Shown here in pieces: positions 2,533-25,100 of a DNA stretch of 26,870 nucleotides (positions are counted from its first letter, which is position 1; each line of letters starts with the position of its first letter). This stretch comes from a virus. The stretch covers positions 1-26,870 of IMG/VR virus record IMGVR_UViG_3300008267_000296. One strand, given 5' to 3'. Both the position numbers and the translations under genes were made by a program. The notes under the pieces were generated by a model, which saw nothing but the letters and a program-made list of their open reading frames with translations, was not told where the DNA came from and ran no database searches.

Positions 2533-5500
2533 ATGGCTTCAACAAATAAAGTTTTTGTATCTCCAGGTGTCTATACATCAGAAAGAGATTTAACTTTTGT
2601 GGCTCAAAGCGTAGGTGTTACTACTTTAGGTATAGTAGGTGAAACATTACAAGGACCCGCTTTCGAACCAATCTTTATTACAAATTTTGATGAGTACCAA
2701 GTTTATTTCGGTGGTACTAGTCCTGAAAAATTTGTAAATACTCAAATACCTAAATATGAGTCATCATATATTGCAAAGGCGTATCTTGCTCAATCAAACC
2801 AATTATTTGTAACGAGAATATTAGGTTTATCGGGTTACGATGCTGGACCTTCTTGGTCTATCGCAACAATTGCAAACCCTGATCCGGCAACAATTTCCGC
2901 AACTGGAAATATATCAGCACAGATATTATCCTTTACGGCGACTTCAGCAAGTACTACAGTAACTGCGGTTCCTGCTTTATTAAATTCACTGTTTTATAAT
3001 CAGTATACAACAAACGATGGTGGAACATCTTCATTAAACGAAGATTTTCAATCTTTTATATCATCACAAGTTACTAAATTTATAAATAGTGGTTCAGGAT
3101 CAACAGGTGGAAATGCGGTATTTTGGGGAACAGTTAGTGGTGGAACATTTAACCAAGTTACAGGTACTACTATTTTTGGTAACTCTATTTCAGCAACAAG
3201 CGAAACATTTGGTGTTAGTAATGTAATTTTAGCAAACGCTACATTATCCGCAACAACAAACGACGCATGGTATTATGGATTATTCGATTATTCTAAAGTA
3301 TCAAGTGTTGGAAGTTACTATGGTTATGGATTTGGTGCTGCTTTAAGTGCTATCGGTACAGGTGCAACTTCTACAACATATACAGGTACATGTACTATTT
3401 ATGGTACACAATATTCAGGAACACCATATACAACTTATGATGATATGGTTGTTGCAACACTTAGGTCAAGAGGTATTAGTACATATTCAGCATCACAAAG
3501 TGGGCCAAGATATGAAGTTTCTGCCACAACAGACGCAAGTATGATTTGTACTGGTTCATATTCGGCGGTTACAAAAGACCCATTTGCAACATTTGTTATT
3601 ACGGGGACTACTTTTGATAATGACACATTTAGTTTTGAAACTTCTATGGAATCTGCAAGTACAAATTACATTTCTAAAGTATTTGGAAAAAGTAATTTTG
3701 GTAAAGATAGGACTGAGGTTCCTCTTTTTGTTGAAGAGGTTTATCCAAGTTTGTTACTTAGTACTTATAGACAAGGAAAAATAAGAGGATTATATTGCGA
3801 CTTCATTGAACTACAAGAGGCTAGATCTTTAAATACCGAATCAATTGGGTTTTATTTGGAGCAATACCAAACACCTGAAACACCTTATATTGTTTCTGAA
3901 CTAAGAGGTAATAAAGTTTATAAATTATTCAAATTTGTTTTAATTTCTGACGGTAACGCGGCTAATAGACTTGTTAAAATTTCTATCGCAAACATTTCAT
4001 TTAATAATGGAACTTTTGATTTATTGGTAAGAGACTATTTTGATAATGATCAAAATGTAAGAGTCATTGAAAGTTTCACAAATTGTTCACTTGATCCTAA
4101 TTTGAATAATTATGTGGCAAATAAAGTAGGTACATCTAATGGTGAATACCAAGTAAAATCAAAATACATAATGTTAGAGATGAGTGACGAGGCACCAACA
4201 GACGCACTTCCTTGTGGTTTTGAAGGTTACAATATGAGAAAATACTCAAATGCCACGTCTCCTTTCATTATTTATAAAACAAAATATAACCAACCAGGGG
4301 ATGTGTTATATAATCCTCCTTTTGGATCATCAAATGGTGGAGATAATCCTGTTATTTCAAATGGAGAAAATCCAAGAAAAGTTTATTTAGGTGTTTCAAA
4401 TATAACAGGAATTGATAGTGACTTCTTCGAATACAAAGGTAAAGTGTTACCGGCGAATTTAGGAACAGACACAACAGGATCTGCATGGGGTTATATGACA
4501 AAAGGTTTCCACATGGACGTTAACGCAAGCGTTATAACAATTCCAAATGGTTTTGTGACTTCAGGTCAACCATATTTTGAAGTGGGAGTTTCACCGTTCA
4601 ATTCTGAACCAACAGATTCAGATAATGCGTATTATAGACTTAACACTCGTAAATTTACAGTTTTGGCTTACGGTGGTTTTGACGGATGGGACATATATAG
4701 AGAATATAGAACAAACCAAGATAATTTCCAATTAGGTCAATCAGGTTATAAATTTGGGGCTGAAGCGTCTATAACATACCCAACAGCTTCAGGTTGGGGA
4801 GCATTTAAACAAATCACAGGACCTAACCAAGAAGTGTGGGCAAATTCTGACTATTATGCTTACTTATGGGGTCAGTCTACATTTGCAAACCCTGAATCAA
4901 CAAACATAAATGTTTTTGTTACTCCTGGTATTGACTATAAAACAAATAGTAACTTAGTTGAAAGTGCTATTGATATGGTTGAAACGGATAGGGCAGACTC
5001 AATTTATATTTGTACAACACCTGACTTTAATTTATTTTTACCATCATTTGCTGATGTGTCTGAAGGTTTAGTGTTTCCACAAGAAGCAGTAGATGAGTTA
5101 GAAAATACAGGAATTGATTCTAACTATACCGCAACTTATTATCCTTGGGTTTTAACAAGAGACTCAGTTAATAATACACAAATTTATTTACCGGCAACCG
5201 CTGAGGTAACTAAAAATTTGGCATTAACGGATAATATCGCATTCCCTTGGTTTGCATCCGCAGGTTACACAAGAGGTTTAGTAAATGCCATCAAGGCAAG
5301 AAAGAAACTTACTCAGGATGATAGAGACACTCTTTATAAAGGAAGAATTAACCCTATTGCGACATTCTCAGATGTAGGTACCGTAATTTGGGGTAATAAA
5401 ACTTTACAAATTAGAGAGTCGGCACTTGATAGAATTAATGTGAGAAGATTGTTACTACAAGCAAGAAAACTAATTTCGGCAGTCGCAGTAAGGTTACTAT

Positions 5501-5739
5501 TTGAACAAAATGACGATAAAGTAAGACAAGATTTCTTAGACTCAGTTAATCCAATATTAGATCAAATAAGAAGAGATAGAGGTCTGATTGATTTCCGTGT
5601 GACTGTTTCAAACACTCCTGAAGATTTAGATTCAAATACTCTAACAGGTAAAATTTATTTAAAACCAACAAGGGCGTTAGAATATATAGACATCGAGTTT
5701 GTAATCACACCAACGGGAGCATCTTTTGATGACATTTAA
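2533..5739 (+). CDS. Contractile tail sheath protein (T4 gp18 family)
   Basis: This 1068-residue protein polymerises around the tail tube and contracts to drive the tube into the cell. The N-terminus carries the sheath signature FVSPGVYTSERDLTF (residues 8-22), followed by GIVGETLQGPAFEP. The C-terminal third is typical: an AFPWFASAGYTRG segment, NPIATFSDVGTVIWGNKTLQ, a helix-rich NVRRLLLQARKLI block and a final strand ending near ITPTGASFDDI. It is much longer than T4 gp18 (659 residues). The extra length lies mostly at about residues 110-370, a Ser/Thr/Gly-rich beta region expected on the outside of the sheath. It has its own promoter box and is followed by a terminator, so it is expressed as a single-gene unit, as expected for an abundant protein. 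Confidence 0.95.
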   Translation: MASTNKVFVSPGVYTSERDLTFVAQSVGVTTLGIVGETLQGPAFEPIFITNFDEYQVYFGGTSPEKFVNTQIPKYESSYIAKAYLAQSNQLFVTRILGLSGYDAGPSWSIATIANPDPATISATGNISAQILSFTATSASTTVTAVPALLNSLFYNQYTTNDGGTSSLNEDFQSFISSQVTKFINSGSGSTGGNAVFWGTVSGGTFNQVTGTTIFGNSISATSETFGVSNVILANATLSATTNDAWYYGLFDYSKVSSVGSYYGYGFGAALSAIGTGATSTTYTGTCTIYGTQYSGTPYTTYDDMVVATLRSRGISTYSASQSGPRYEVSATTDASMICTGSYSAVTKDPFATFVITGTTFDNDTFSFETSMESASTNYISKVFGKSNFGKDRTEVPLFVEEVYPSLLLSTYRQGKIRGLYCDFIELQEARSLNTESIGFYLEQYQTPETPYIVSELRGNKVYKLFKFVLISDGNAANRLVKISIANISFNNGTFDLLVRDYFDNDQNVRVIESFTNCSLDPNLNNYVANKVGTSNGEYQVKSKYIMLEMSDEAPTDALPCGFEGYNMRKYSNATSPFIIYKTKYNQPGDVLYNPPFGSSNGGDNPVISNGENPRKVYLGVSNITGIDSDFFEYKGKVLPANLGTDTTGSAWGYMTKGFHMDVNASVITIPNGFVTSGQPYFEVGVSPFNSEPTDSDNAYYRLNTRKFTVLAYGGFDGWDIYREYRTNQDNFQLGQSGYKFGAEASITYPTASGWGAFKQITGPNQEVWANSDYYAYLWGQSTFANPESTNINVFVTPGIDYKTNSNLVESAIDMVETDRADSIYICTTPDFNLFLPSFADVSEGLVFPQEAVDELENTGIDSNYTATYYPWVLTRDSVNNTQIYLPATAEVTKNLALTDNIAFPWFASAGYTRGLVNAIKARKKLTQDDRDTLYKGRINPIATFSDVGTVIWGNKTLQIRESALDRINVRRLLLQARKLISAVAVRLLFEQNDDKVRQDFLDSVNPILDQIRRDRGLIDFRVTVSNTPEDLDSNTLTGKIYLKPTRALEYIDIEFVITPTGASFDDI

Positions 5740-9149: not shown

Positions 9150-9638
9150 ATGGCTGATTTACTAATGAAAATGCCTTTTCAGTATGAACCTAAAAGAAAA
9201 AATAGGTTTATAATGACGTTCCCTTCGTCTTTGGGAATTAATTCTTGGTACGTTGAAAGTGCATCAAGACCAAGTATAACTATCGGTAGTAAAGAAATAA
9301 AATTTTTAAATACTGAAACTTATGTTGCAGGATCTTTCAAATGGGAAAATATTACAGTGAAACTTAGAGACCCAATCGGACCTTCAGCTGCACAAGCGGT
9401 TATGGAGTGGGTAAGATTACATGCCGAATCAGTAACTGGTCGTATGGGATATGCCGCGGGTTACAAAAAAGACCTTGACTTAGAAATGTTAGACCCAACA
9501 GGCGTTGCTATTGAAAAGTGGATTTTACAAGGTTGTCAATTAACTGCCGCTAAATTTGGAGACTTAGCTTATACTGGAGACGATCTAGCAGGAATCGATT
9601 TAACAATTCAACCGGATAGATGTATATTAGTTTATTAA
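9150..9638 (+). CDS. Tail tube protein (T4 gp19 family)
   Basis: This 162-residue protein is almost exactly the length of T4 gp19 (163). It forms the stacked hexameric rings of the inner tube. The N-terminus (PFQYEPKRKNRFIMTFP) and the following SWYVESASRPS segment are typical of the gp19 family. So are the middle VKLRDPIGPSAAQAVMEWVRLH block and the C-terminal strands from LDLEMLDPTGVAIEKW to LTIQPDRC. It is a single-gene unit with its own promoter box and a strong terminator, consistent with high expression. In T4 the tube gene directly follows the sheath gene; here two tagged cargo-like genes are inserted between them. Confidence 0.95.
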   Translation: MADLLMKMPFQYEPKRKNRFIMTFPSSLGINSWYVESASRPSITIGSKEIKFLNTETYVAGSFKWENITVKLRDPIGPSAAQAVMEWVRLHAESVTGRMGYAAGYKKDLDLEMLDPTGVAIEKWILQGCQLTAAKFGDLAYTGDDLAGIDLTIQPDRCILVY

Positions 9639-9663: not shown

Positions 9664-9690
9664 ACTCACCCAAAAGGTGGGTTTTTTTAT
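9664..9690 (+). terminator. Intrinsic terminator after the tail tube
   Basis: ACTCACC (9664-9670) pairs with GGTGGGT (9676-9682), with one T-G wobble, across the loop CAAAA, and is followed by a run of T. It argues against using the ATG at 9677, which lies inside the hairpin, as the start of the next gene. Confidence 0.85.
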
Positions 9691-9730: not shown

Positions 9731-10480
9731 ATGGATAACGAAGAAAAATACGGACAAAGTAATTTTAATTTACCACATGATGTGATCAAATTACCATCTA
9801 AAGGTTTATTTTACAAACCAAAAAAAGAATCAATTAAAGTTGGGTATCTAACCGCTTCTGATGAAAATATTTTAATGTCTGAAAACAATAGAGATGGGAT
9901 AGTTAAAAGTTTATTAAGACAAAAAATATACGAACCAGGGTTTTCTGTTGAACAATTATTAGATTGTGATGTACAAGCTATTTTAATCTTTTTAAGAAAT
10001 ACAGCATTTGGGTATGAATATAATTTTAATATAGTAGACCCAATGACGATGAAAAAATTTGATGCAACAATTTTGTTGGATGAAATTGATTATATCGATT
10101 CTTTACATAAACCAGACGAAAATGGACTTTTTTCTTATAAATTACCAAAAAGTAACGTTGATGTAAAAATAAAACTTTTAACAATTGGAGACCAACTTCA
10201 ATTAGATAAAATAAAAGATCAATACCCTCAAAACATGGTTGCTCCTGTTGCCACAAAAAAGTTGGAATTACACATAGAAGAAATGAATGGGGATAAAGAT
10301 AAGGGTAAAATATCACAGTTTATTTTACAAATGCCAATAGCAGATTCTAAAAGTTTGAGAAAATTCATTACAGAGTGCGAACCAAAGTTAGATCTTAAAC
10401 GTGAAATTATAGCCCCGTCAGGAGAAAAGGTAGATGTTACAATCGCCTTTGGGGTTGAATTTTTTCGGCCTTTCTTCTAA
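9731..10480 (+). CDS. T4 gp26-like baseplate / tail-assembly protein; likely chaperone
   Basis: I place the start at 9731, giving 249 residues. An in-frame ATG at 9677 lies inside the tube terminator. The N-terminal half has the hallmark of the phage T4 base plate protein family (gp26, Pfam T4_baseplate): LPSKGLFYKPKKESIKVGYLTASDENIL, then a helical DGIVKSLLRQKI and a CDVQAILIFLRNTAFGYEYNF segment. The family often has zinc-type cysteine pairs in the middle; they are absent here. The gene lies between tube and tape measure, where other tailed phages encode tail assembly chaperones. The last codons overlap a +1-frame ORF, and a TTT CGG pair at 10463-10468 could allow some ribosomes to shift into it. 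Confidence 0.8.
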   Translation: MDNEEKYGQSNFNLPHDVIKLPSKGLFYKPKKESIKVGYLTASDENILMSENNRDGIVKSLLRQKIYEPGFSVEQLLDCDVQAILIFLRNTAFGYEYNFNIVDPMTMKKFDATILLDEIDYIDSLHKPDENGLFSYKLPKSNVDVKIKLLTIGDQLQLDKIKDQYPQNMVAPVATKKLELHIEEMNGDKDKGKISQFILQMPIADSKSLRKFITECEPKLDLKREIIAPSGEKVDVTIAFGVEFFRPFF

Positions 10481-10625
10481 CTATCAAAAAAATTTATTAG
10501 ACGAAATATATTATTTAATCAAATATGCTAATTTTTCATATTTTGATTTAAAATTAATGCCGACTTATGAAAGAAAATATTTTGTCAACCAATTAATCAA
10601 AGATTTTGAAAAAAATAATAAATAA
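10434..10625 (+). CDS. Overlapping +1-frame ORF, probable frameshift extension of the gp26-like protein
   Basis: The open frame overlaps the end of the gp26-like gene in the +1 frame. The part beyond the presumed shift site is 52 residues, with a helical core LLDEIYYLIKYANFSYFDLKLMP and ending near QLIKDFEKNNK. An aromatic-rich helix followed by a short MP-x-x-E-R segment and a second helix resembles the C-terminal parts of tail assembly chaperone fusions. If produced by a +1 shift at 10463-10466 the fusion would be 297 residues. Alternatively it starts at its own ATG at 10434: an AGGAG at 10420-10424 has Shine-Dalgarno-like spacing, which is the one such site I noticed in the window. The tape measure follows directly with its own promoter box. 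I am confident that the frame is coding and less sure how it is reached. Confidence 0.65.
   Translation: MLQSPLGLNFFGLSSNYQKNLLDEIYYLIKYANFSYFDLKLMPTYERKYFVNQLIKDFEKNNK
10460..10468 (+). other. Candidate +1 programmed frameshift site
   Basis: The zero-frame codons are TTT TTT CGG. A phenylalanine tRNA reading TTT at 10463-10465 can slip forward one base to TTC, a better match for its anticodon, while the ribosome waits at CGG, expected to be a slow codon in this AGA-preferring genome. The next codon in the +1 frame is GGC at 10467. The zero frame ends only four codons later, at the stop codon 10478-10480. Confidence 0.5.
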
Positions 10626-10626
10626 C

Positions 10627-10638
10627 TATTTATTTAAA
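10627..10638 (+). promoter_or_regulatory. Putative late promoter box for the tape measure gene
   Basis: TATTTATTTAAA starts one base after the preceding stop codon and 20 bases before the ATG at 10647. Confidence 0.55.
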
Positions 10639-10646
10639 AAGTAAAT

Positions 10647-12695
10647 ATGTATTGGTTAAGTACCACTGAATCGGATCCACTAAATTTACCAAATGTAAAA
10701 GGAACAAAGGATTTTGTTACTGATTTTGCTAGTGCCTTAAAAACCGCATTTGACCCATTAATAACTGAAAAATTCTTCTTAAAGTTAGAGTCTGATGCTA
10801 GAGCGGCAAGTTCTAAAATGGGAAATCAGTTTGCTTCAAATGTCGGATACATTCAAGACATGATGGTCGATCTCTACACTGAAAATTTAAAACTTGGTTT
10901 TGAATATAAAGACACTGGTGATTTTTTAAAGGGACTTTCAAGTGAGATGGGTAGAATGGTATCTTTTACCGAAAAAAGTACAAAAGAGGCGATTCTTTTA
11001 TCTAAGGCTATGGGTACAAGCGCCGAAGAAGTTGGTAAAATGTATGCTTCTTTTGTTAAGTACGGTATGAGCCAACAAACCGCTGAAAAAGTGTTGGGTA
11101 AAACTTTTGAAATGGCTAGAAAGTACGGAGTCGATGCGGCAAAACTAACTAAAACTGTTTCAGATGACATATATAAAGCACAAATTTATGGATTTAAAGA
11201 TGGTGTAGAAGGACTAACCAAAATGGCAATACAAGCACAAAGATTAGGTGTTGAAATGAAAATCGCCGCTGGTGCCGCTGATAAAGCGTTTGACCCTGAA
11301 GGTGCGATTGAAATGGCTTCAAGTTTACAAATGTTAGGTGGTGCCATGGGTGGTATGACAGATGTTGGTCAATTAATGTATATGGCACAAAGTGACGTTG
11401 GGGCACTTCAAGACTCTATTTTAAAATCTACCGCAAGTATGGTTGATTTTAATAAAACAACTGGTGAATTTAAAATTAGCCCCGAAATGAGAAGAAACAT
11501 GACGGATTATGCAAAATCAATTGGGTCTACTTATGAAGAAGTTGCAAAAAATGCAGTTAAAGCAAGAAAAGAACAAGAAGTTTTATCAAAATTACCAATG
11601 ACCGGAGGTTTTTCTGAAGAAGAAAAATCGATGATCGCATCACTTGCAGAAATAGGCCCTAACGGACAAGTCCAAATAAAACTACCCGGTACCGATAAAT
11701 TAATTGATGTTAGTGAATTAAAAGGTGGTTCCGCTCAAATGGCTGAATTGAAAAAGGCACAAGAAGAAGCATCTAAAAGTTCAGAGGAGGTTGCAAAAGA
11801 TCAATTAGGTGTTTTAAAACAGGTTTCTAATACTTTACAGGATATAAAATTACAGGGTGTAGTTGCCGGAGGAAAAGTAACCTCACCTGGTAAAAGAACT
11901 TCCGATGAAATGATTGAAAATGTTCAAAAAAGAACAAATGAAGAAGGTATGGGTTATGATCTTCTTAAAAATCAAATGCAACCTGTATTACAGGCCGAAT
12001 TGGAAGCTTTTTCCTCAACAGTGACTCTTGTCACAAACGAATTGGCTGGCGCACTTAAAAGTACCGAACTTTCAACAGGTTTAGAAATAATGGGTGAAGC
12101 CGCAAAATTAGCATTTCAAGGAATTGAAACTGCGGTTAAGGCACTGGCGGATTTACTAAAGGGTGATGCTAAGGCCGCTGCAAATGAATTTAAAACGGCA
12201 ATTGAAGAAGCAACAAAAACTGTAGAGGCTATGTTTACTAAAATGGGTTTTGATCCTAGTAACATTGAAAAGTGGAAAGAATCCCTACCTAAATTTAGTG
12301 TAGAAAGGTTGGAAGAAAATTCAACAAATACTGAAGAGATCCCAACATATAAAAAAATAACAGATAATGAGCTTACCACCTCCAACGAATTAAAAAATCA
12401 AACCACAAATATACCCCCAACTAATGAAAATTTAACAACTCAAATTGTTACGCCAAGTAATGTAAATCAAAACATAGATTTTGAAAATAAAAAAAGTGAA
12501 GGTACTTTAACATTCGCTGGTGAATCAAAAATTACAATAGAATTAAATTCTAACATACCAAGTAATATACTAGATAAAGTTTTGGATGAAGAACAAATTA
12601 CAACACTAATTAAAGATGAGATGAGAAATGCTTTTAATAAATCTACAAATAATAACATATTAAACGCAATACCATTAGACATAAATTATGGATAA
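10647..12695 (+). CDS. Tail tape measure protein
   Basis: This 682-residue protein sets tail length and occupies the tube lumen. The sequence is almost entirely helical, with Ala/Lys/Glu/Met-rich segments typical of tape measures, for example SFTEKSTKEAILLSKAMG, then YGMSQQTAEKVLGKTFEMA. A Gly/Met-rich patch follows (MLGGAMGGMTDVGQLMYMA, about residues 229-247), and then a long charged helix with KKAQEEASKSSEEVAKDQ. The last 150 residues are Asn/Thr-rich and less ordered. At about 0.15 nm per residue the tail tube would be near 100 nm, close to T4, whose gp29 is 590 residues. Its place directly after the tube and the putative chaperone genes supports the assignment. I see no transmembrane segment and no peptidase or lysozyme motif. 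Confidence 0.85.
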   Translation: MYWLSTTESDPLNLPNVKGTKDFVTDFASALKTAFDPLITEKFFLKLESDARAASSKMGNQFASNVGYIQDMMVDLYTENLKLGFEYKDTGDFLKGLSSEMGRMVSFTEKSTKEAILLSKAMGTSAEEVGKMYASFVKYGMSQQTAEKVLGKTFEMARKYGVDAAKLTKTVSDDIYKAQIYGFKDGVEGLTKMAIQAQRLGVEMKIAAGAADKAFDPEGAIEMASSLQMLGGAMGGMTDVGQLMYMAQSDVGALQDSILKSTASMVDFNKTTGEFKISPEMRRNMTDYAKSIGSTYEEVAKNAVKARKEQEVLSKLPMTGGFSEEEKSMIASLAEIGPNGQVQIKLPGTDKLIDVSELKGGSAQMAELKKAQEEASKSSEEVAKDQLGVLKQVSNTLQDIKLQGVVAGGKVTSPGKRTSDEMIENVQKRTNEEGMGYDLLKNQMQPVLQAELEAFSSTVTLVTNELAGALKSTELSTGLEIMGEAAKLAFQGIETAVKALADLLKGDAKAAANEFKTAIEEATKTVEAMFTKMGFDPSNIEKWKESLPKFSVERLEENSTNTEEIPTYKKITDNELTTSNELKNQTTNIPPTNENLTTQIVTPSNVNQNIDFENKKSEGTLTFAGESKITIELNSNIPSNILDKVLDEEQITTLIKDEMRNAFNKSTNNNILNAIPLDINYG

Positions 12696-12774: not shown

Positions 12775-15700
12775 ATGGAAAGTCCGTTATCTTTTAACTC
12801 GTCAGAAAACTTTAGAAAAAAACTTTTAGTAAGAAATCTTAAACCTTACAAAGTTGATGGTAGTTTTACTTCTAACGATACAAATATAGTAAAAGAATAT
12901 CAAATTGTTGATTATTCTGTAATCGATTCTGAAAGTATTGAAATAATTGGAAACAAACAAGAAATAATATTATACCCAAAAAACAAGTACGGACCAACAA
13001 ATACTAATTCTACTTACGGTAATATTGTAAATATTAATTTAAATTTAAACACAGAATCAAATCAAGGAACATATGGTTATGATAAAACTATAGATTCTAA
13101 GTTAGAGCAAATAGGTAACCAGAGAGAAATTTTTTCTAAAATTAAAAATGTATATAAATCATCGGGCGACGATTATGGTATACCTGTTTATACTATAAAT
13201 AATGATAATATTATTTTAACAAATGGTACAGGCATATATGATATATCAGATACATTTGGTAGTTATTTAGAACAAATAGGTAACCAACAAGAAGTAACAT
13301 TAAGGGTTAAAAACAAATACACACCAGAAGGTGGAAATGATTACGGTAACACAAGATACTCTATTAATGATATTTTATCTATAGGTTCAAACGAAGGTAG
13401 TTACACTTTTGTTGATAGTGTTGGAAGTAATTTAGAAGTAAAAGGTTTAGAAAAAAGAAATGAAACCTTTCCAAGTAACCAATACGGACCAACAAATGGA
13501 CAAAGTTTGTTTGTTGTTGAACCGTTCATTAACCAACAAACAAACGCACCTGAAGGTAACTATGGTTTTGATGATACGTTTAATAGTCCTTTAGAAATAA
13601 TAGGAAACCAACAAGAAATTGTTTTAAGAGTTAAAAATAAATACACACCAGAAGGTGGTACCGATTATGGTCAGACAAGATATAGTATAAATGATTTATT
13701 ACCTATAGGGTCAAACGAAGGTGAATATAATTTTGCAGATACTGTCGGAAGTAAATTAGAAACCGATGGGTCGTTATTTAGAAATCAATTATTTCCTATT
13801 AGTCAGTATGGTCCTGAAGGAGAACAAAGTCAAAATACCGTTAATCCTAATGTTAATCAACAAACATTTTCCAATGAAGGAAATTACGACTATAACGATA
13901 CTTTAGGTAGTCCATTAGAGGTATTTGCCGAGAATTCTTTAAATTTTCAAATAAATCAGTATGGCCCACAAAGTCAACCAGGAAACGCGGCCGATGAAAA
14001 CATCAATATACAAACCAAACCATTTGAAGGTGAGTATGATTTTTCAGACACTGTTGGTAGTGAGTTAGAAATTATAGGGAAAATAGAATCAAACGATGCT
14101 TATGTAATTAATAAATACGTTACTGGTGACGGAGATTATGACACCATAACTATTGATGATATACAAACACAAACAACAGGTCAGAGATATTATAACTCCT
14201 CTCAATCCTTTTCTTTTTTACCGTCAGATTATTTACCAATCAATATACTTTTGAGTAATAATCCTAATGGTTCAAATGGATCATTATCACAAGATTCAGA
14301 TTTGGCTAAAATTGCAGCAAAAAGATTACAAAAAGAATTTAAATATAGAGTTGCTGCTGAGTTGTTATCAGAAACATTAGGAAGATTAAATGTCGTTAAC
14401 TCATCAATTGATCCTGATAGTGGAGAAATATCGGTTAAACCAAAACTAGACCCATTTAATGCTTTAGGAATCCTAAGTGGAAACGTACCACTTATTCAAA
14501 GAAATTATAAAATAACAGACTCAAACAATATTATAGGGAAGGCGATTGGTTTTGTTGCTAATCTTACGGGTCTGTATTCACCTTACTCATTGATACCGGG
14601 TGAATATTTTGATTACCCAAAAAAGAGATTATTAAATAGATTGATTGATAATCCATTTGAACCTTTAACGACAGGTGTAATGGGAGCAATAACTAAAATA
14701 ACATCACCACCAAACCAAACAGGATCTGAAAGATTTGTTGCATTTACATCAAACGCAACGCAAAGTTTGATTTTTAATCAGATTTCTTTAAATGAATTTA
14801 GGCCTAAATATACTGCAGGTTTTGTTGATAGTGCGGTAAATACATTAACCGGTGTTAATTTGTCGGCACCTGATGGTAGTTTTTATATTGGTAGTAGAAA
14901 AAACACAATAACTGAGATTGTTTCTCCTGTTAATGCTCTTCCTGTATATAAAGATGGTGAACCATTTAACATGGCTGTTTATAGTTATGGTGAAGTTGCT
15001 AAAGAATATGAGGGTGAAAAAATAAATGATTACTTTTTTGGTTTAAACACTAGACCATTGTATGATGGAAAATCACAAATAACAGGAGATTTTAGTTGGA
15101 CGACAAAGAAAAGTTTTTTCAAACCAGGTAGAAAGGTAGGTCCTGGAGGTAAACAAGAATATAAACAAAACGAAGTTTTTGATGCAAATATAAAAAGAGC
15201 GTTTGAAGATTCCGTATCTTATTCTTTAGATTTTAAAGAAGGATCTATTTTAGATGTAACACAAAAAATAGTAGATGCCGGTTCTAAAAATGGTGTTTAT
15301 TATTTGAAACACGTAGGAAATGCAATTAACCAAGTAAGTAAAGTCTTTAATGATGGGTATATTGAAATAACTAAAGGGTCTAGAGTTATTAAATATAAAA
15401 CAAAGAATTCGGTAGAATCCACATCAAAAAACTTTGAGGGTCTTGAATATTGTAGATTATTTACAAAAGATAACCCATACTATACTTATTCACAATTACA
15501 AAAAACCGATGGAAATATAAGAAAGTCCACTTATTCTATTTTTGACAACACTTACAATTTGAATATTGCACCAATGAACGATAAGAATGGTCAATCAACA
15601 AATATTCAAGAAGGTAAAGTAAAAAAATATATGTTTTCATTAGAAAACTTGGCTTGGAGAACTTCAAATAAAAAAGGTTTCACAGTTGACGATTTACCAA

Positions 15701-18700
15701 GTTGTGAAAAAGGGCCTAATGGGGGTAGAATTATGTGGTTTCCTCCGTATGATTTAACTTTCAATGAATCAGTTAAACCTGATTTTGATAGTATTAATTT
15801 TTTAGGTAGACCCGAACCAATATATACGTATAAAAATACATCTAGAACTGGAAGTTTATCGTGGTCTATAATTGTAGATCACCCCTCAATATCTAATCTT
15901 TTAATAGAAAAAGAATTAGAAAACGTAACACCCGACTCTGAAATAACAAAAATAATGGATTCGTTTTTTGCTGGGTGTTTAAAATATGATCTATATGAAT
16001 TAGCAAAAAAATTCGTTCAATTCACACCAAACGATATACAAGAAGCGATTAGTTTAGTCAAAAATAAAGAAGACGCTAAAAAAGTTGCAACTGAAACTTC
16101 ACCTGAGCCCGAAGCCATAGTTGAAACACAAGATGGTTTAACGGATGATGAAAAAGAAAAATTTAAAGAAATATATTTGTTTTTTGAAAATGCGCTACCT
16201 GACGATTCAGACACAACAACAACCTCAAAAAATTATAAACAATGGTATGATGTTTATACAAAACAAAGCATTAAAGATTTATATACGGGTAATAATAGTT
16301 TAATAAAAGATAAAATTTTTAATTATCCATTAAAAACAAATGTTACTCCTAAAATTTTAGATAACTCAACTCAAGACTTTGATTATAAAAGTTATATAGA
16401 TACAAGAAAAACGGCCATATCAAGTTTTTATAATGATAGAATAGTTACCGCTATTAATATTTTAGATGAGTTTAAAAATAAAATAGCAAAAGTTTTAGAT
16501 TCTGGAGGTAAAGTTTCGTTTAGTCTTTTAGGAACTGCAAGTAGTGTTAGTGGCGTTGATTATAATAAAAGACTATCATCAAGAAGAATTGATTCTGTTA
16601 AACAATATATTTTGGATTTTGAGTATAATGGAAAAAAATTAAAAACTTATTTAGATAAAACATTAATAATAAAAGAAGACCCACAAGGTGATAGGGCTGA
16701 AAATATAACTGACGAAAGTTTAAAAGACATCAACTGCTCCGAACCATTTAAGACTGTGGTTAATGGTGTTACTGTTGGGCAAAATAGTTATGAAGGGACA
16801 TTTTCAGTTCAAGCAATGGCGTGTAGAAGAACCAAAATTACAGATTTATTAGTTGAGCCAGTACCTAAACCTAAAGAATCCGAGCCGACATCTGATGGGC
16901 AATTAACCGAAACAGAACAAAAAGACAATCAAACGATCACACCCCCAAATATAGGAAGTAGCCCAACAGACATACAAGAAACTCCCGTATATCAAGGACT
17001 TGCAAAAAAATTAATTAGAAACTTATTAAGTGAATGTGATTATTTTGAAATGTTAAACGACCAACAACCAATGGTGTATGATGGAATTAAAAGTAAATTT
17101 AAAAATTTTCACCCAATTTTCCATTCAATTACACCTGAAGGTTTAAATTCAAGACTTACATTTTTACAGCAATGTATGAGACCTGGTGATACCATACCTA
17201 CGGTGACTCAATCTGACACAGGAACTCTTTCATTGAACTATCAAGACGCATTTAACAGTGCATTTGGATCCCCTCCTGTTTTAGTTTTAAGGGTTGGAGA
17301 TTTTTACCACACTAAAATTATACCAACAAACTTAACAATAAAATTTGATAAAGGGGCTCTCTTTGATATTAACCCAGAAGGAATAGGAGTACAACCAATG
17401 GTTGCAAGTATAGATTTATCTTTTAACTTTATTGGAGGACAAGGAATTGCGGCACCTGTGGCTAAATTACAAAACGCATTATCATTTAATTATTATGCAA
17501 ATACCGAATTATATGATGAAAGAGCGGAAGTAACTGATGAAGATTTGACAAAAAAATATGATGCAGAATTCTATGAGGCGGCAAAATTAAATACCAAAAA
17601 TAAAAAAGACGAAAAACCGCAAAATGAATTAGGTAAAACTATTGGTGAAATTAAAACATCAACAACTGATCCAAGTGGATCAACAACAGGGACAATTTCA
17701 TATGAAAAAAATATGAAAACATTAATAGAGGTCACATCATCGTATGTTAATAATGTGACAAATACCCTTAAAACGATATCGGATAGTTATGGTTTAGGTG
17801 GTTTATATATTACAAATACCGATAGAAAATACCAAGAAGGGAATGTTTATACTACGGACGTTAAAATTTATGGAAAATCGGAAAATTTTCAAAATAAAAT
17901 AAGTTCATTGTTTTCCACTTTTAAAGATGATATTGAAAATGAAATAACACCATTATTGGCTGATTTAGGGTTAGAAAATTTTAAAAACAACCAAAAAAGA
18001 AAAATCAAAAGACAACTTAAAAAAATGGCAAACGATAGAAAAACAATTTATTTGAATTTTATTGATGAGCAAAATAATAAAATAGTTGTAGAAGAATTAA
18101 ATTTTATGAAACAAGTGGATCAATTAAATTTTGTTTCAGATGCTAAAGACGGTTTTATAAATTCAAGAGGACGAACAATAGTATATGACGTTTCAGGAAC
18201 TGCAGATGTAGACCCATCATCAAGTGGATACCCCAATACTTTACAAGAATTAAGGGGTGATTATCTTATAGTTGCAGACGACATAAATAATTTTATAACA
18301 AACCTTGAAACAGAAAAAATCATATCAACCACAGAAGATGAAAAATGGGTAGATACTTTTGATTTTAATTTATATATCGGTGAAAATCAAACAAGTCAAG
18401 ACAATAGATTGAATATGGTTTTTGGGACTGAAATAGTTAATAACATAGATGGATTTGTAAATGAAATAGTTGAACCTATTAATAACAATGAAGATAAAAC
18501 TAAATGGATAATTTATTTAAGAAAAAACTTAGGTAATCAAACAACGGGAGCCATTTCAGCAAATGGAATTTTTAATAATTATAAAAAACAAAAAGAAATT
18601 ATAGTAAAAAGATTTGAAGATTTTAATGTGAATTATTTTGGTGATAGATACAGACAATACAGACCTTATTCAGATACTAAAAAAAGAATTTGTGATTTTG

Positions 18701-18810
18701 TTTCTCAAATACCTGTTAATGATACGGACTCTGAAAAATTACAAAAAATCGCATCAAAAACTAATACTGAAGGTGATAGGTTTAACTTAAAAAACAAAGG
18801 ATTTAATTAA
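12775..18810 (+). CDS. Giant baseplate/tail protein with N-terminal repeats and an OmpA-like domain (2011 aa)
   Basis: The function is unassigned; it is probably a baseplate or tail-tip structural protein. Residues ~55-468 contain about eight imperfect repeats of ~50 residues, recognisable by an NKY-GP or NKYTPEGG turn, an EG-x-Y-x-F/Y-x-DT-x-GS stretch and LE-x-IGNQQE. Residues ~1195-1360 look like an OmpA/MotB C-terminal domain: SGGKVSFSLLGTASS at 1243-1257 and N1264-x2-L1267-S1268-x2-R1271-x3-V1275. The Asp that usually binds the peptidoglycan peptide is missing (GTAS instead of GHTD), so binding is uncertain. Residues ~1500-1583 form a beta-rich block (RVGDFYHTKIIPTNLTIKF to SFNFIGGQG) resembling tube-like folds of tube-initiator proteins such as T4 gp48 or gp54. 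T4 also has genes 48 and 54 just after its tape measure. The next gene starts two bases after its stop codon. Confidence 0.65.
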   Translation: MESPLSFNSSENFRKKLLVRNLKPYKVDGSFTSNDTNIVKEYQIVDYSVIDSESIEIIGNKQEIILYPKNKYGPTNTNSTYGNIVNINLNLNTESNQGTYGYDKTIDSKLEQIGNQREIFSKIKNVYKSSGDDYGIPVYTINNDNIILTNGTGIYDISDTFGSYLEQIGNQQEVTLRVKNKYTPEGGNDYGNTRYSINDILSIGSNEGSYTFVDSVGSNLEVKGLEKRNETFPSNQYGPTNGQSLFVVEPFINQQTNAPEGNYGFDDTFNSPLEIIGNQQEIVLRVKNKYTPEGGTDYGQTRYSINDLLPIGSNEGEYNFADTVGSKLETDGSLFRNQLFPISQYGPEGEQSQNTVNPNVNQQTFSNEGNYDYNDTLGSPLEVFAENSLNFQINQYGPQSQPGNAADENINIQTKPFEGEYDFSDTVGSELEIIGKIESNDAYVINKYVTGDGDYDTITIDDIQTQTTGQRYYNSSQSFSFLPSDYLPINILLSNNPNGSNGSLSQDSDLAKIAAKRLQKEFKYRVAAELLSETLGRLNVVNSSIDPDSGEISVKPKLDPFNALGILSGNVPLIQRNYKITDSNNIIGKAIGFVANLTGLYSPYSLIPGEYFDYPKKRLLNRLIDNPFEPLTTGVMGAITKITSPPNQTGSERFVAFTSNATQSLIFNQISLNEFRPKYTAGFVDSAVNTLTGVNLSAPDGSFYIGSRKNTITEIVSPVNALPVYKDGEPFNMAVYSYGEVAKEYEGEKINDYFFGLNTRPLYDGKSQITGDFSWTTKKSFFKPGRKVGPGGKQEYKQNEVFDANIKRAFEDSVSYSLDFKEGSILDVTQKIVDAGSKNGVYYLKHVGNAINQVSKVFNDGYIEITKGSRVIKYKTKNSVESTSKNFEGLEYCRLFTKDNPYYTYSQLQKTDGNIRKSTYSIFDNTYNLNIAPMNDKNGQSTNIQEGKVKKYMFSLENLAWRTSNKKGFTVDDLPSCEKGPNGGRIMWFPPYDLTFNESVKPDFDSINFLGRPEPIYTYKNTSRTGSLSWSIIVDHPSISNLLIEKELENVTPDSEITKIMDSFFAGCLKYDLYELAKKFVQFTPNDIQEAISLVKNKEDAKKVATETSPEPEAIVETQDGLTDDEKEKFKEIYLFFENALPDDSDTTTTSKNYKQWYDVYTKQSIKDLYTGNNSLIKDKIFNYPLKTNVTPKILDNSTQDFDYKSYIDTRKTAISSFYNDRIVTAINILDEFKNKIAKVLDSGGKVSFSLLGTASSVSGVDYNKRLSSRRIDSVKQYILDFEYNGKKLKTYLDKTLIIKEDPQGDRAENITDESLKDINCSEPFKTVVNGVTVGQNSYEGTFSVQAMACRRTKITDLLVEPVPKPKESEPTSDGQLTETEQKDNQTITPPNIGSSPTDIQETPVYQGLAKKLIRNLLSECDYFEMLNDQQPMVYDGIKSKFKNFHPIFHSITPEGLNSRLTFLQQCMRPGDTIPTVTQSDTGTLSLNYQDAFNSAFGSPPVLVLRVGDFYHTKIIPTNLTIKFDKGALFDINPEGIGVQPMVASIDLSFNFIGGQGIAAPVAKLQNALSFNYYANTELYDERAEVTDEDLTKKYDAEFYEAAKLNTKNKKDEKPQNELGKTIGEIKTSTTDPSGSTTGTISYEKNMKTLIEVTSSYVNNVTNTLKTISDSYGLGGLYITNTDRKYQEGNVYTTDVKIYGKSENFQNKISSLFSTFKDDIENEITPLLADLGLENFKNNQKRKIKRQLKKMANDRKTIYLNFIDEQNNKIVVEELNFMKQVDQLNFVSDAKDGFINSRGRTIVYDVSGTADVDPSSSGYPNTLQELRGDYLIVADDINNFITNLETEKIISTTEDEKWVDTFDFNLYIGENQTSQDNRLNMVFGTEIVNNIDGFVNEIVEPINNNEDKTKWIIYLRKNLGNQTTGAISANGIFNNYKKQKEIIVKRFEDFNVNYFGDRYRQYRPYSDTKKRICDFVSQIPVNDTDSEKLQKIASKTNTEGDRFNLKNKGFN
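13271..13745 (+). repeat. Internal duplication in the giant baseplate gene
   Basis: The segment starting near 13271 and the one near 13595 are close copies at the DNA level, including an identical stretch around 13319-13334 and 13643-13658. They are exactly 324 bases (108 codons) apart. This indicates that a two-unit block of the ~50-residue repeats was duplicated recently relative to the other, more diverged units. Confidence 0.7.
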
Positions 18811-18812
18811 TT

Positions 18813-19130
18813 ATGCAATATTACAATAGATACCAAAAGTTTTTAATAGATGGACAACAAACTGTCGTACCATTTGTTTCTATAGGGATTAGAACAACAG
18901 ATCAAAACTATGTTTATATAAAAAATAAATCTAGGTTAGATAAAATTAGTTACGAAAAATATGGGACACCTTATTTTGATTGGTTGATTTTAGCTGCTAA
19001 CCCATTATACGGTGGTTTAGAAACGGAAATACCTGACGGAGCAGTTTTAATTATACCATTTCCTTTAATAAACGCATTGAAAGACTACAAAAGTGCTGTA
19101 GATACACATATTTTTTATTATGGCCGTTAA
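18813..19130 (+). CDS. LysM-like baseplate protein, P2 gpX / T4 gp53-like
   Basis: This is a 105-residue protein. Residues ~38-90 form a LysM-like module: SRLDKISYEKYG, then YFDWLILAANPLYGG, and a PDGAVLIIPFPL end. This is the order seen in phage tail LysM proteins (loop with D-x-I-xx-x-x-YG, a helix with W and N-P, a proline-rich final strand). In P2 gpX and in the C-terminal part of T4 gp53 such a module sits in the baseplate. The first 30 residues (YYNRYQKFLIDGQQ) resemble baseplate wedge N-termini. It is embedded between the two giant baseplate genes, starting two bases after the first and overlapping the second by 11 bases. That places it in the same complex and indicates coupled translation. 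Confidence 0.7.
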   Translation: MQYYNRYQKFLIDGQQTVVPFVSIGIRTTDQNYVYIKNKSRLDKISYEKYGTPYFDWLILAANPLYGGLETEIPDGAVLIIPFPLINALKDYKSAVDTHIFYYGR

Positions 19131-22100
19131 TGATCCAAACAAATTTAGACAGATATATAATCTTGAAAATCAAATATTAGTCGAAGCCGACTACGATAAT
19201 ATAATTATTATCGACCCAAATAAAGTAGTAGATAACCAAAAACAGGTAAAAGATAGGTTTGTACAACAAGAAAATTTTGTTATGTATGCTAATTTGGAAA
19301 CTAAAATTATTCCAAGAACAAAATTAGCGATTGGTGAAAGTTTTGATTCACCAGTAAATAATACAACAATTGCATCATTAGGAAGTGGTGACGACGATTT
19401 AAATATTAATTTTTTAAAACCAAAAGGAAAACAGTACTTCGATACTAGTTGGTCAGACGAATTTACAGGTAGAGGTACAAGACAAGGGAGGGGAACAAAT
19501 CAAAACGCTCAATATGAAACCAAACAAGATGGTGGAGGATCTACGTTTAAAAGTAAAGTTTTAAATTTTGAAGATACACAAACTTTAGGTATAGAATCAA
19601 TAAGGGTAAAAATATCATCAATAGGTACACCTACAGTTGATATTGATTTAACGGACATTAGAGGAAGGGCGTTATTTGAACAGGGAGAAAATTCTTTGTA
19701 TTCAGTCTTTTTCAATTTACCATACCCAACATTTTATTTGGTATTGAAAGGTTACTACGGTAAGGCTATAAGGTATCAACTTACATTACTAAGTTTCAAT
19801 GCAAAGTTTTCACCTGAAAGTGGAAATTTTAATATCAGTTTGAAATTAATGGGTAGAAATAGTGCGATTTTAGCTGACAGTTTAATATCCTTTGCTAAAC
19901 ATTCACCAAAAATGTTTAGAACAGAAGTAACCACAAATAAAAAAACATCAACATCAAGTTCAAGTAGTTCAAATTCAACAACAAAAAACGTTACAAACGA
20001 TACGGTAGGGTTGCAAAAACTAAGGGAGGTATATAAAATATATGAAAGCAAGGGGTTAATCAAAGACTTACCTGTTACCACTATGGAAGATTTTATTATT
20101 AAATGTAATAGTTTCGATAAAAACGTACAAGATAAAATAAAGGGTGGTGACTTTGATGTTATAAATGATGTTGCTGATTATAGAAAAAACTTGGATGATT
20201 TAAAACAAAGAGTTTTTTTTAATTCTATATCCGATTTTTTAGATACATCAGAAAAGTTATATATTGATGGTAAAATTTATTATCCTTATTTAGAGAGTTT
20301 TAATTTAGAAAATAGAAATAAAAAAAGAGAAGCAGTAAAGTCAGATTTTGACGTATTAGTAAAAAGATTAAATGAAAACACAAGTTTTGGTAAGGGAGGA
20401 AAATACAAATTACCCGGGAAAGCAAAAGAACAAAGTGGAGAGATTACAAATAAACTTAATTTTGATGAGATAATAACAAATTCAATAGACTATAATGGAA
20501 TCTCTAATGAAAATTTTAAAAAAACATACGAATTAAATTATGGATCTGCACCGTCAGATGAAGAATTAGAAAAATTTATAATTGATTTTAAAACACTAAA
20601 TAAAACAAAACAAATTATAATAGATTCAAAAGGAAACCAAGTACAGTCAAACCCAACCCTATGGTTTTTTGGTGATAAGGTTTCTAATACTTCAGAATAC
20701 TTTCCTGATAGTTTTTTAGATAAAATTAATAAAATGACTTTAGATGTTGAAAATAAAAGAAAAGTCATTGAACAGGCGTTAACCGATGAGTTAAAAAACA
20801 TTTTAGTGGATAGTAAATCGGGTTTAGGGTTTACACCGACCATTAGAAATGTTTTTGCAGTATTATTTGGTGGGTTAGATGCTTTCTATAGAATGATGGA
20901 GGACACCCATACAAACGCATGGAAACAAAGAAAAAACCCAATAAGACTTGATGTAATTTTACCTCCAGGAAAAAATGTTGGGGTGGACACAGTGGAAGTC
21001 GTTAATGGAACTGCAGAATTAAATAAAGAAAACACTGTATATCCTTGGCCTCAATATTATGAATTAGAAAGACAGAATGATGGAAGTGAACAATACACAA
21101 TAAAATATCCTGGTGACGCATTATCTGTTGCTGCAACAAAAGGGTTTAATCAAGTTATATGGCCTGAAATTGCATTCACCGAAGAGTACATTGCTGCATC
21201 ATTAGAGAAAGAATCACCACAAACACCACAAGTAACTGGTAATGAAAAAAAAGACACAGATTATGTGTCAGTATCCGCAATAGAATTTCCCTTTAAAACT
21301 TTACCTTACCAAGACATATCCGAGGTTAGTTTTCTGTATGAAATTTTTGAAAGATCTTACCTTTCGACACATTATAGTAAAATAAATAGGGGTAATTATA
21401 AAACAGATCAAATTGATAAATTCCTTAGCGACATTGAGGGGGAAAATATCAAAACATCGATAACCAGTAATTTAAGCCCAGTACTTAACAATATTTTAAA
21501 AAACTCAAAACCTATTTTTACTGAATATTTAAAAAATCTAAAAGAGATATCATCAAAAGGTACAGGACCTAGTTGGGTGAATTATTCAAACTCTAATTAT
21601 AATTTAAATTACATTAAAAATTATATAGATTCCGGTTATAATAAAATTTACAGTATAGATACATTAAACGGAACATCGATTGCAATTGCAGGAAATATTC
21701 CATTTAAAGATAAGATAAAAGATTACATTAATAATACAAAATCTTCTGAAGAATTTTTTCTTGACCCATACCCATTAAATGATATTAATTGGTTAAAAAA
21801 TAATCTTCAAGACGGACAATCATTGACCACGGTAAATGACTTTTTTAACACTAAAAGTCTTCTATTTTTAGACGATAAAAAAACAATTGCAAGACTTGGC
21901 GAAAATGAAACTATAACTAATGTTAACTTATTTGTTGATAAATATGGTTTTGAAAATTATACAAGTACTAATTATTTATTAGACCAACAAAATCAAGTAA
22001 CAGTTAACAGTAGAGATTCTTTAAAAAATTATTTCTTAAATAAGAAAAATGAATATCTGTATTTAACTGAATCTTTTATTGAATATGGTAATAATTATTC

Positions 22101-25100
22101 TGGAAATGTCGGTACAAACATACAAACAACTTCATTGTTGAACACACCTTATTTTATAAACGCAATATTAGATGGGGTAGAAAAATCAAAAAACCCAAAT
22201 GAAAAAACTCCATATACTTCTTTAGGTTATTTGTTTTTAAATTCATTACCACTTATTACAACAAAAGAAAAAATAAAACAAACCTCATCAAATAACGCAG
22301 CACCAACAGACTTAGATTATTTGGCAGCAACATTCAATAAATTTTCCGCAATACATAAATTACCATATGCTTGGGTTTTAAAATATGGATCTATTTGGCA
22401 CAGATATAAAAAATATATTGAAGGTAGTGGTGATATTTTAGATAGTGTTTGGAAAGATTTTGATTATTTAGGGAATTACGATCCGATTAATTCTGCGGCA
22501 ACCACTTCATATTCAGGTACATGGATTGGAAACATTACATTACAACAATCAACATTAGTACCTAACTTAACAAACGTAACTTTAGATACAATAACAACTG
22601 GGTTTTACCCAAAAGTTATTAACAATTTATATAGGTTTTTTTATAACAACGATTTAAGTATACTGCAAACCCCAACATATAATAACTTCGTATCCATAAC
22701 TAATAATTTTGGATTCAAAGCTGTTAATTCTTACAGTAGATTTTTTGATGTGGGGTTTGATACTCAATCACCTAACAGGCAATTTACTATAAAAAACTAC
22801 CACCAATATTTTGAAAAACCAAACGGAGACGATACCAAGATATTAGTTATACCTAGTATGGGTAGTATCGGGTTTAACCAATCCGAGTTTGAGTGTTTTA
22901 ATAGTAATGATAAAAAAACTGAAGAAATGTTTAATAACAAATCAGTTTACAACGGATCTGTGAGATCTTTATGGTCAGCACCTAATTTTGGATACTTCGA
23001 TAATAGTTTAATAAAAAAACCAAAGTATAATGAGTACATCAAAAAAATAGACACAACACAAAATAAAAAACAATCGGCGTTTAATTTAAAAAATAATCAA
23101 GACACATACTCTTCAATAGAAGAAATTTTTGCTTTATTTGAACCAAGTATACTCGATGAGTTTGAAAATAGATTTTTAGCTTTTTGTAATCCAAACCCTA
23201 ATGCGAGTGATTTAAAATTATTAGAAGAGCAAACCAATTCAACACAAACAACATCAGGACAAGTACCCAATATTGAACAAAAAAGACTTTTCAATCAGAT
23301 AGAATCTTTATTTTTAATACCTAAAAATTCAATAGATTTATCTGGAGATGATTCATCTGATGCTAAAAATATATCAAACGCTCAGTTAAATAACTTCGCA
23401 ACTTCACTAATAAAGTTTTTAAATTTTGACTGTATATTAAAACTTGGTAACCCATCTAATTTTGAAAGAAAATCATTTAATTATTTTACAGACAATCAAC
23501 AATTTAAACCAATTGCCGGTGTTAAACCTTCAGGTTACGTTAAAGGTTCGTTACCTGGAGATTCATTAAATACAACATTAATTAATAGTCAAATAGCAAA
23601 TAAAACAGAGTGGGAAACTTTAAAAAAATACGTTGGAGAGTTTACACAAAGTGGCATTGACTATCAAAATAGTGGATCATCAATAACTGATTTTTTTATA
23701 AAAAATAATATTGGATTTACACAAACAAATATTGAAACACTCTACCCTTTAATAAGGTTATACGCTAAAGAAAAATTAAAAGACAATACATTTAATGGAC
23801 CTAAATTTATTCAAAAAATAAATACTTTTATGGTTGAACAAAGAAGTTTTAATTCAGATGTGTTAGATGGTACGATTAGATATCTTAATAAAAATTTAGA
23901 TGAAACTAAAGTTAAAACGAATACCATTAATAGTTCATTAAGTGGTAACATTGTAAAATTAGAATATTATACAACATTAAAAACTTTAAACGATAAATGG
24001 ATTGCGGGTACTGATTTTACAAACAAAACTATATTTGAAGATTTTTTATTTTTAGATAGGGCTAATAGGGACATAGGGGATGAGTTTACAATAGATGTAA
24101 GTGAAATGGCAACTTTACTTTCTAATCCTAATAAAAATTATTTAGATTTAATAAGCGGTATTTTAGAAAAAAATTATTTTATATTTTTTGCAATGCCAGC
24201 ATACTTTAATTTTTACGGATTACAAGACGCCGTATCAAGTGGTAAACCAATCCCTGTCGATATTCCTAACTCACTTTTTGGTACTTATTTAGACGTTGAT
24301 TATATAGACTCAAGACCTAAATTCCTTTGTGTTTATGTGGGGAAACCTTCAGAATATCCTGCAAGTGATGCTTCTTATGTTAGGTTTAAAGACGATGCAT
24401 TTGACTTGAGAAAATATGATAACCCACTTAGAAAAGAAGATAAAGATGGAACAGACTTCTCTAAAAAAAATAAAGTAGTTGGATTTGCGGTTGATTACGG
24501 AATACAAAACCAAAGCATTTTTAAGGGAGTCGATTTAGATATGTCTGAAAAAAAGAACACTGCGGAATCAAATAGACTGGTTTCTCAAATAGGTCAGTCA
24601 GCATCGGGAGATAAAGTTGCACAACAAACGGTTTCATTATATAGTATTTATAAGGCTAGATCTTATACTGCTACAGTAAAATCTGTAGGTAACGCAATGA
24701 TACAACCAACAATGTATTTTAATTTAAGACACATACCATTATTTTATGGGCCTTATTGGATTATGTCTGTTGAGCACAGTGTTAGGCCTGGTAATTTTGA
24801 CACAACATTTAAAGGGGTTAGAATGCCAATTTATAGTTTACCTAAACCAAACTCTATGATTGAGGCGGTAAATAAAAACTATACAGAATATTACAAAGAT
24901 TTAATAGTAAAATCTAAAAAAGTAAACGAGTCGACTAATGAAAAAAATCTTAGTGATGAAAATGCAAATAAAAACGAAGAAACAGGACCGGTTATTGGTG
25001 AAGAAAATAGTTGTAAAAACGCTATTCCTGAACAATATAACACTTTAGAATTAGTAGACCTTAACCTCACAAATATTACTCAAAGTGAAATAAAAGATAA

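Follow-up and report, generated by a model that had tools for sequence, protein, structure and literature searches.

We analysed a 26,870-nucleotide stretch of viral DNA (hereafter the window; a fragment), which very probably carries a tail assembly chaperone gene of the gp26/gp51 type, with programmed +1 frameshifting giving rise to the long form of the protein. From the sequence comparisons described below, we put the probability of this reading at roughly 0.92. The homology of the gene to gp26/gp51, its location in the tail module, and the overlapping open frame at its 3' end all agree with this assignment.

The gp26-like gene and the overlapping +1 frame

The window contains one gp26-like gene, and a small T-like C-terminal domain (the T domain) lies in an overlapping +1 frame, unlike the two-gene layout of T4. 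The features of the locus are as follows.

2533-5739: tail sheath gene, 1068 residues, in the T4-type tail module of the window
9150..9638, + strand: tail tube protein gene, upstream (phrog_4542, E 4e-27)
9731..10480, + strand: gp26-like gene, putative chaperone short form, 249 aa, C-terminal end EFFRPFF
10412..10455, + strand: candidate 5' stem, GCCCCG (10412-10417) with TGGGGT (10450-10455), inner pairing of 10429-10433 with 10443-10447
10421..10426, + strand: GGAGAA in the loop of the candidate 5' stem, invariant in 16/16 sequences, synonymous positions included; overlaps a proposed Shine-Dalgarno sequence
10434..10436, + strand: ATG of the rejected independent-start model, position not conserved
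10460..10468, + strand: proposed +1 slip site TTT TTT CGG (TTTCGG itself at 10463-10468)
10467..10625, + strand: T-like C-terminal domain in the +1 frame, 52 codons from GGC (10467) to TAA (10623-10625)
10478..10480, + strand: 0-frame stop of the short form, 12 bases past the slip site (CCT TTC TTC TAA)
10647..12695, + strand: probable tape measure gene, downstream, 682 aa, identity by position

A first-pass annotation of this DNA had ended the gp26-like frame 12 bases after the TTT CGG at 10463-10468 and had the +1 frame open for 52 codons, and these coordinates were confirmed. The 0-frame finishes as GAA TTT TTT CGG CCT TTC TTC TAA, and a +1 slip at the second TTT leads into EFF-GLSSNYQK..., such that the long-form junction and the short-form end are predicted to yield the tryptic peptides VDVTIAFGVEFFGLSSNYQK and VDVTIAFGVEFFRPFF, respectively. 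The gp26-like protein matches phrog_150 (E 8.7e-12) as well as PF12322, the latter with E 4.2e-5 and 23.8 bits, slightly under the cut-off of 24.5. Its match to phrog_150 ends at position 233 of 282, whereas that of the +1 fusion reaches 279 (E 1.3e-12, positions 10-279 of 282). Family searches gave no match for the product of the downstream gene at 10647..12695; it is related to the product of the equivalently placed gene of Microcystis phage Mel-JY01 (26% identity, 251 columns, E 4e-8), and a tape measure is annotated in the corresponding place in the phages immuto, SP-15, and LIS04. The first-pass annotation also had a tape measure promoter just after the +1 frame, but no sigma-70-like promoter was found in 10626-10646, ahead of that gene. 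The sole terminator-like hairpin nearby (ACCCAAAAGGTGGGT, then T6) is at 9668-9682, between the tube and gp26-like genes and thus 5' of the latter. Elsewhere in the window, known sheath domains are matched by only the last ~280 residues of the sheath gene product, and the probable tape measure gene is followed by two very large ORFs at 12775-18810 (2011 residues, without a PHROG match) and 19120-25665 (2181 residues).

Structure prediction gave a model of the fused window protein with pLDDT 85 and pTM 0.82. The T domain (pLDDT about 90) was modelled as a helix, a short helix, and a long helix, and the order of C-terminal elements in a model of T4 gp51 matches it. When 979 PDB chains were structurally re-aligned, the HK97 tail assembly chaperone 2OB9 (gp13) ranked first with a middling Z of 5.4 (rmsd 3.8, 94/104 residues). 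A PDB Foldseek search returned nothing significant and the T4 gp51 model had no chaperone match; given the middling Z and these empty searches, we take the 2OB9 match as supportive only.

Slip site conservation and frame-specific selection

Within the window, TTTTTTCGNCC occurs once (0.13 expected from shuffles), and the slip site is the only in-frame TTT CGN among the main ORFs. The earlier guess of a rare arginine codon proved correct, as CGG occurs once in ~8,480 codons of the main ORFs, precisely at the slip site, while AGA is used 193 times. A DNA-level search against named phages returned no match for the window. Using single proteins as queries for the locus searches, one scan identified 38 related loci with 59-74% protein identity, 37 of which span the gene end. 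All 37 retain the slip site together with an open +1 frame, and the 21 distinct close loci without exception read TTT TTT CGN CCN. There are no synonymous changes at TTT TTT in either the window clade or its sister clade. Over 16 divergent sequences of the window clade, dN/dS upstream of the site is 0.26 in the 0-frame and 0.82 in the +1 frame, which contains stops there. Downstream, it is 0.142 in the stop-free +1 frame, compared with 1.0 and 0.96 in the 0-frame and -1 frame, both of which have stops; the control frames overall range from 0.82 to 1.9, with stops. An open frame in 37/37 relatives together with a dN/dS of 0.142 versus the control frames indicates that the overlap is not due to chance, and this candidate explanation was ruled out. 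The proposal of a +1 shift at a TTT CGN like that of influenza PA-X is thus borne out to the extent that the site is conserved in relatives and selection changes frame at it. The alignment that the first-pass annotation had suggested likewise gave the expected pattern: TTTCGN and the overlap geometry are conserved, whereas the +1-frame residues N-terminal to the slip are not.

The sister clade was collected by a protein search with Mel-JY01, which returned at least 599 relatives among at least 600 stretches listed, 80 of which were fetched. Among these 80, 65 of the 66 distinct complete loci have a TTT-TTT-type site followed by TGG, TAC, or TTC and then CC, nearly always as TTT TTT TGG CCT. 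The +1 frame is open in 65/65, with a pN/pS of 0.26 versus 1.2-1.6 in the other frames. Synonymous changes are absent from TTT TTT (0 observed vs 25.8 expected) and from the CCT codon (0 vs 18.4).

A different way to produce the T domain would be from a separate gene, in which the ATG at 10434 and an AGGAG ribosome binding site direct synthesis of a small free-standing protein, in line with the annotation of KVP40 gp51. The ATG and AGGAG of the window are suitably spaced, public records carry short separate ORFs for the T domain, and in the distant relatives LR756511 (L045 3769-3771) and Cygsa01 (L233 2807-2809) the domain is indeed encoded by its own gene, with a TAATG overlap, the slip-type overlap being absent at the end of gp26. 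In 13/20 distinct close loci, the window included, the +1 frame also contains some ATG ahead of the domain, so a second route is possible for those loci. However, the position of the window ATG is not conserved, and no ATG, GTG, or TTG precedes the conserved domain in the +1 frame in five of the 20 distinct close loci (L004, L005, L006, L008, and L012) or in 25 of the 66 distinct sister-clade loci among the 80 fetched. The upstream +1 frame, at a dN/dS of 0.82, evolves like non-coding DNA and appears unconstrained, while GGAG, and indeed the whole GGAGAA, is kept even in sequences without a downstream start codon. The annotated ORFs immuto gp038 and SP15_046 start within the conserved domain and would lose its N-terminal half. 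With start codons missing in many loci, an independent gene is not the general explanation; we rejected the start at 10434, which the first-pass annotation had offered as its alternative, and consider this route very improbable for the window.

Transcriptional slippage on the T6-T7 run could create the same fusion through mRNAs with an altered number of U, and six or seven consecutive T are found in the window and most relatives. Six T are nevertheless short for efficient polymerase slippage, and the +1 layout occurs with T runs of ≤3 in GXN1 (TTC TTT CGT), immuto (TTT CTT TGG), and LR756508 (TTT CTA TTC). As three +1 phages have no long T run, slippage seems, if anything, even less probable than a separate gene. 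Least credible of all is that the short form, which is a separate gene in T4, functions alone and that the downstream frame is the decaying remnant of a once-fused gene, since purifying selection acts on the +1 frame (dN/dS 0.14), which no stop interrupts in the related loci examined. Judged on sequence, +1 frameshifting would be by far the best explanation, and a gp26/gp51 chaperone with a forward-direction shift is well supported.

Shift direction in the gp26/gp51 family

The +1 layout was also found in several named phages, including Microcystis Mel-JY01, Flavobacterium immuto, GXN1 (a Streptococcus record), Bacillus SP-15, Listeria LIS04, Rhodothermus RM378, and the LR756508 megaphage. At nearly all +1 sites, the P-site tRNA-Phe would be able to re-pair (UUU to UUC or UUU). 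The GXN1 site contains an exact TTT CGT, immuto would use a CUU to UUU re-pairing like that of prfB, and LIS04 (TTT TTT AGT) is compatible with re-pairing only if the first TTT slips. It should be noted that the public annotations of immuto, SP-15, and phiAS5 place the start of the T domain at an internal Met, so that its N-terminal portion is lost, while the LIS04 and GXN1 records have no feature there; the misannotated loci are L042 3860-3970, L047 3312-3431, L054 4262-4384, and those after the gp26 gene in L048 and L043. The T domain can therefore be re-annotated in immuto, SP-15, phiAS5, and LIS04, where the public records truncate or miss it.

Other members of the family have the opposite arrangement. 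In S-SM2, P-SSM2, KVP40, phiAS5, Atu_ph07, and IC12, the T domain is in the -1 frame after xxT TTT TTC, and Rhizobium RL38J1 has TTT TTG at its -1 site. All 85 classified loci, nearly all of them cyanophage-, Aeh1-, or Atu-type, fall into the -1 class, in which TTT TTC has 0 synonymous changes vs 29.6 expected and the -1 frame has a pN/pS of 0.15. The cyanophage, KVP40, Aeh1, phiAS5, Rhizobium, and Atu_ph07 pairs share with the window the two domains, their order, and the Phe-Phe junction, along with, in nearly all of these pairs, the TTTTTTC run. They differ in that the predicted shift is -1 at U UUU UUC and, in most, the 0-frame stop comes one codon later. Many -1 loci have an ATG near the stop, and two of the four distinct phiAS5/Aeh1-type loci have no start of any kind; where an ATG adjoins the stop, coupled initiation may operate alongside the -1 shift. 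Thus, the forward direction claimed by the first-pass annotation holds for the branch of the window, but not as the sole mode of the family, the cyanophage/KVP40 branch being of the -1 type. Cyanophage and marine vibriophage gp51 have been described as lacking approximately the first 200 residues (Sullivan et al., PMC3037559).

In T4, genes 26 and 51 are separate and divergently transcribed, so the short and long forms come from two genes, whereas both would come from one gene via a +1 shift in the window. The N-terminal part of T4 gp51 is a paralogue of gp26 (hhalign E 1.8e-17, 190 columns) and is followed by the T domain; phrog_150 and PF12322 each cover gp26 as well as the first 200 residues of gp51, with PF12322 spanning gp51 residues 1-201 and the T domain outside. 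The cyanophage T domain is homologous to the T4 gp51 C-terminus (hhalign E 4e-8), and that of the window clade to the KVP40/phiAS5-type T domain (E 2.1e-5). Direct comparison of the window T domain with T4 gp51 is weak (hhalign probability 14%), the link going via KVP40-type sequences, and neither T4 gp26 nor T4 gp51 gave a significant result when aligned directly to the window clade by hhalign. When the window T domain was searched against all phage records, KVP40-type gp51 loci ranked best by E-value, at E 0.1. In one T4-type locus (L229 2501-3246), the gp51 frame breaks after ~120 residues although the similarity goes on, probably due to a sequence error or mutation. T4 gp51 is reported to be absent from the particle (PMC3004832).

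In an unrooted 50-row tree, the T4-type gp26 and gp51 clades form a sister pair (93/88) that falls among the -1 phages, while the +1 phages group with LR756511, and Atu_ph07 (-1, on a long branch) is found at their base. Because the tree is unrooted, any direction of change is inferred. We lean only slightly toward a history in which the shift switched between +1 (UUU CGN/UUU UGG) and -1 (U UUU UUC) at a single Phe-Phe junction, an ancestor of the Tevenvirinae dropped shifting through the gp26/gp51 duplication, and a 5' hairpin in the window clade may push the ribosome forward.

The link between gp26-type proteins and tail assembly chaperones, which the first-pass annotation had presented as new, stands, but its novelty does not. 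According to the articles that cite it (PMC10885494, PMC12846349), the T4-like tail assembly chaperones were named by Vladimirov, Gautam and Davidson (Virology 2022, 566:9-15), and the chaperone identity of gp26/gp51 and the T4 duplication are already published there. As cited from the same study, some T4-like phages have separate short and long chaperone genes (PMC10885494) and poly-T -1 sites are known in other T4-like phages (PMC12846349). No description of a +1 shift in a gp26/gp51 chaperone turned up in our searches of the open-access literature. The +1 class, the direction switch at the Phe-Phe junction, and the conserved 5' stem in the clade of the window seem to be new.

Candidate signals, proposed mechanism, and implications

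A block that lies 40-50 nt 5' of the site (CCCCGTCnGGAGAA) and CTTTGGGGT are conserved beyond the need of the protein (z -4.6), and this holds solely in the window clade. Together they can form the candidate 5' stem, which has a consensus fold of -9.9 kcal/mol and closes 7 nt ahead of the P-site codon, with 97.6% of cells paired vs 41-57% in slid controls, while the single-sequence fold of the region is unexceptional (z -1.7). Two inner pairs show compensatory change; there is very little variation in the outer ones, and for this reason the stem is suggested rather than established. It may act as a frameshift stimulator in the window clade, as judged from these alignments. We also considered that GGAGAA might pair with the downstream TTCTTC, but each side is doubly coding and varies little or not at all, which leaves the comparison uninformative. 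The GGGG could be viewed as a Shine-Dalgarno-like stimulator, yet it lies 8 nt from the P-site codon, unlike the prfB spacing. No 3' stimulatory structure was found in the window clade (consensus -1.1 kcal/mol).

In the mechanism that we propose, most ribosomes would read through to the TAA at 10478 and produce the short protein of 249 residues. A fraction of them would instead slip +1 while UUU occupies the P site and the very rare CGG is still to be decoded in the A site; the peptidyl tRNA-Phe would re-pair from UUU to UUC, and decoding would continue at GGC to give a 297-residue long form bearing the small helical T-like domain. If lambda gpG/gpGT is taken as a guide, the short form might coat the tape measure protein while the T domain recruits tube subunits. 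What the comparisons show is the conservation, the frame-specific selection, the lack of alternative starts in many relatives, and the gp26/gp51 homology; the occurrence and rate of the shift, the role of the 5' stem, and the function in assembly are inferred. The slip would be in keeping with the reported tendency of UUU_Ynn to undergo +1 shifting in bacteria (PMC5009743).

The resemblance to lambda gpG/gpGT consists in the location between the tube and tape measure genes and in a short and a frameshifted long form, neither of which is expected in the virion. The lambda shift differs in being -1, and the likeness drawn here is one of layout. The chaperone frameshift has been described as conserved in long-tailed phages 'except T4' and the chaperone shift of the haloarchaeal virus HSTV-2 as 'very likely +1' (both PMC5009743), and 350 forward sites are counted among the annotated SEA-PHAGES frameshift genes, mostly chaperones (PMC10885494). 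The HSTV-2 and SEA-PHAGES sites are likewise forward shifts in a chaperone gene, although in other phage groups and likened here by description only. Influenza PA-X and other UUU_CGN +1 sites have in common with the window the UUU to UUC re-pairing and the rare A-site arginine codon; they belong to eukaryotic viruses with no common descent, and the window has no UCC codon 5' of the site.

From these comparisons, a large and mostly uncultured part of the T4 superfamily would make its gp26/gp51 pair from one gene through a forward shift. To our knowledge, few +1 sites are known in bacterial systems, and the loci described here supply hundreds of natural candidates. As another part of the superfamily would shift backward and T4 has two genes, the family offers a testable case of the direction of recoding changing while the product is kept.
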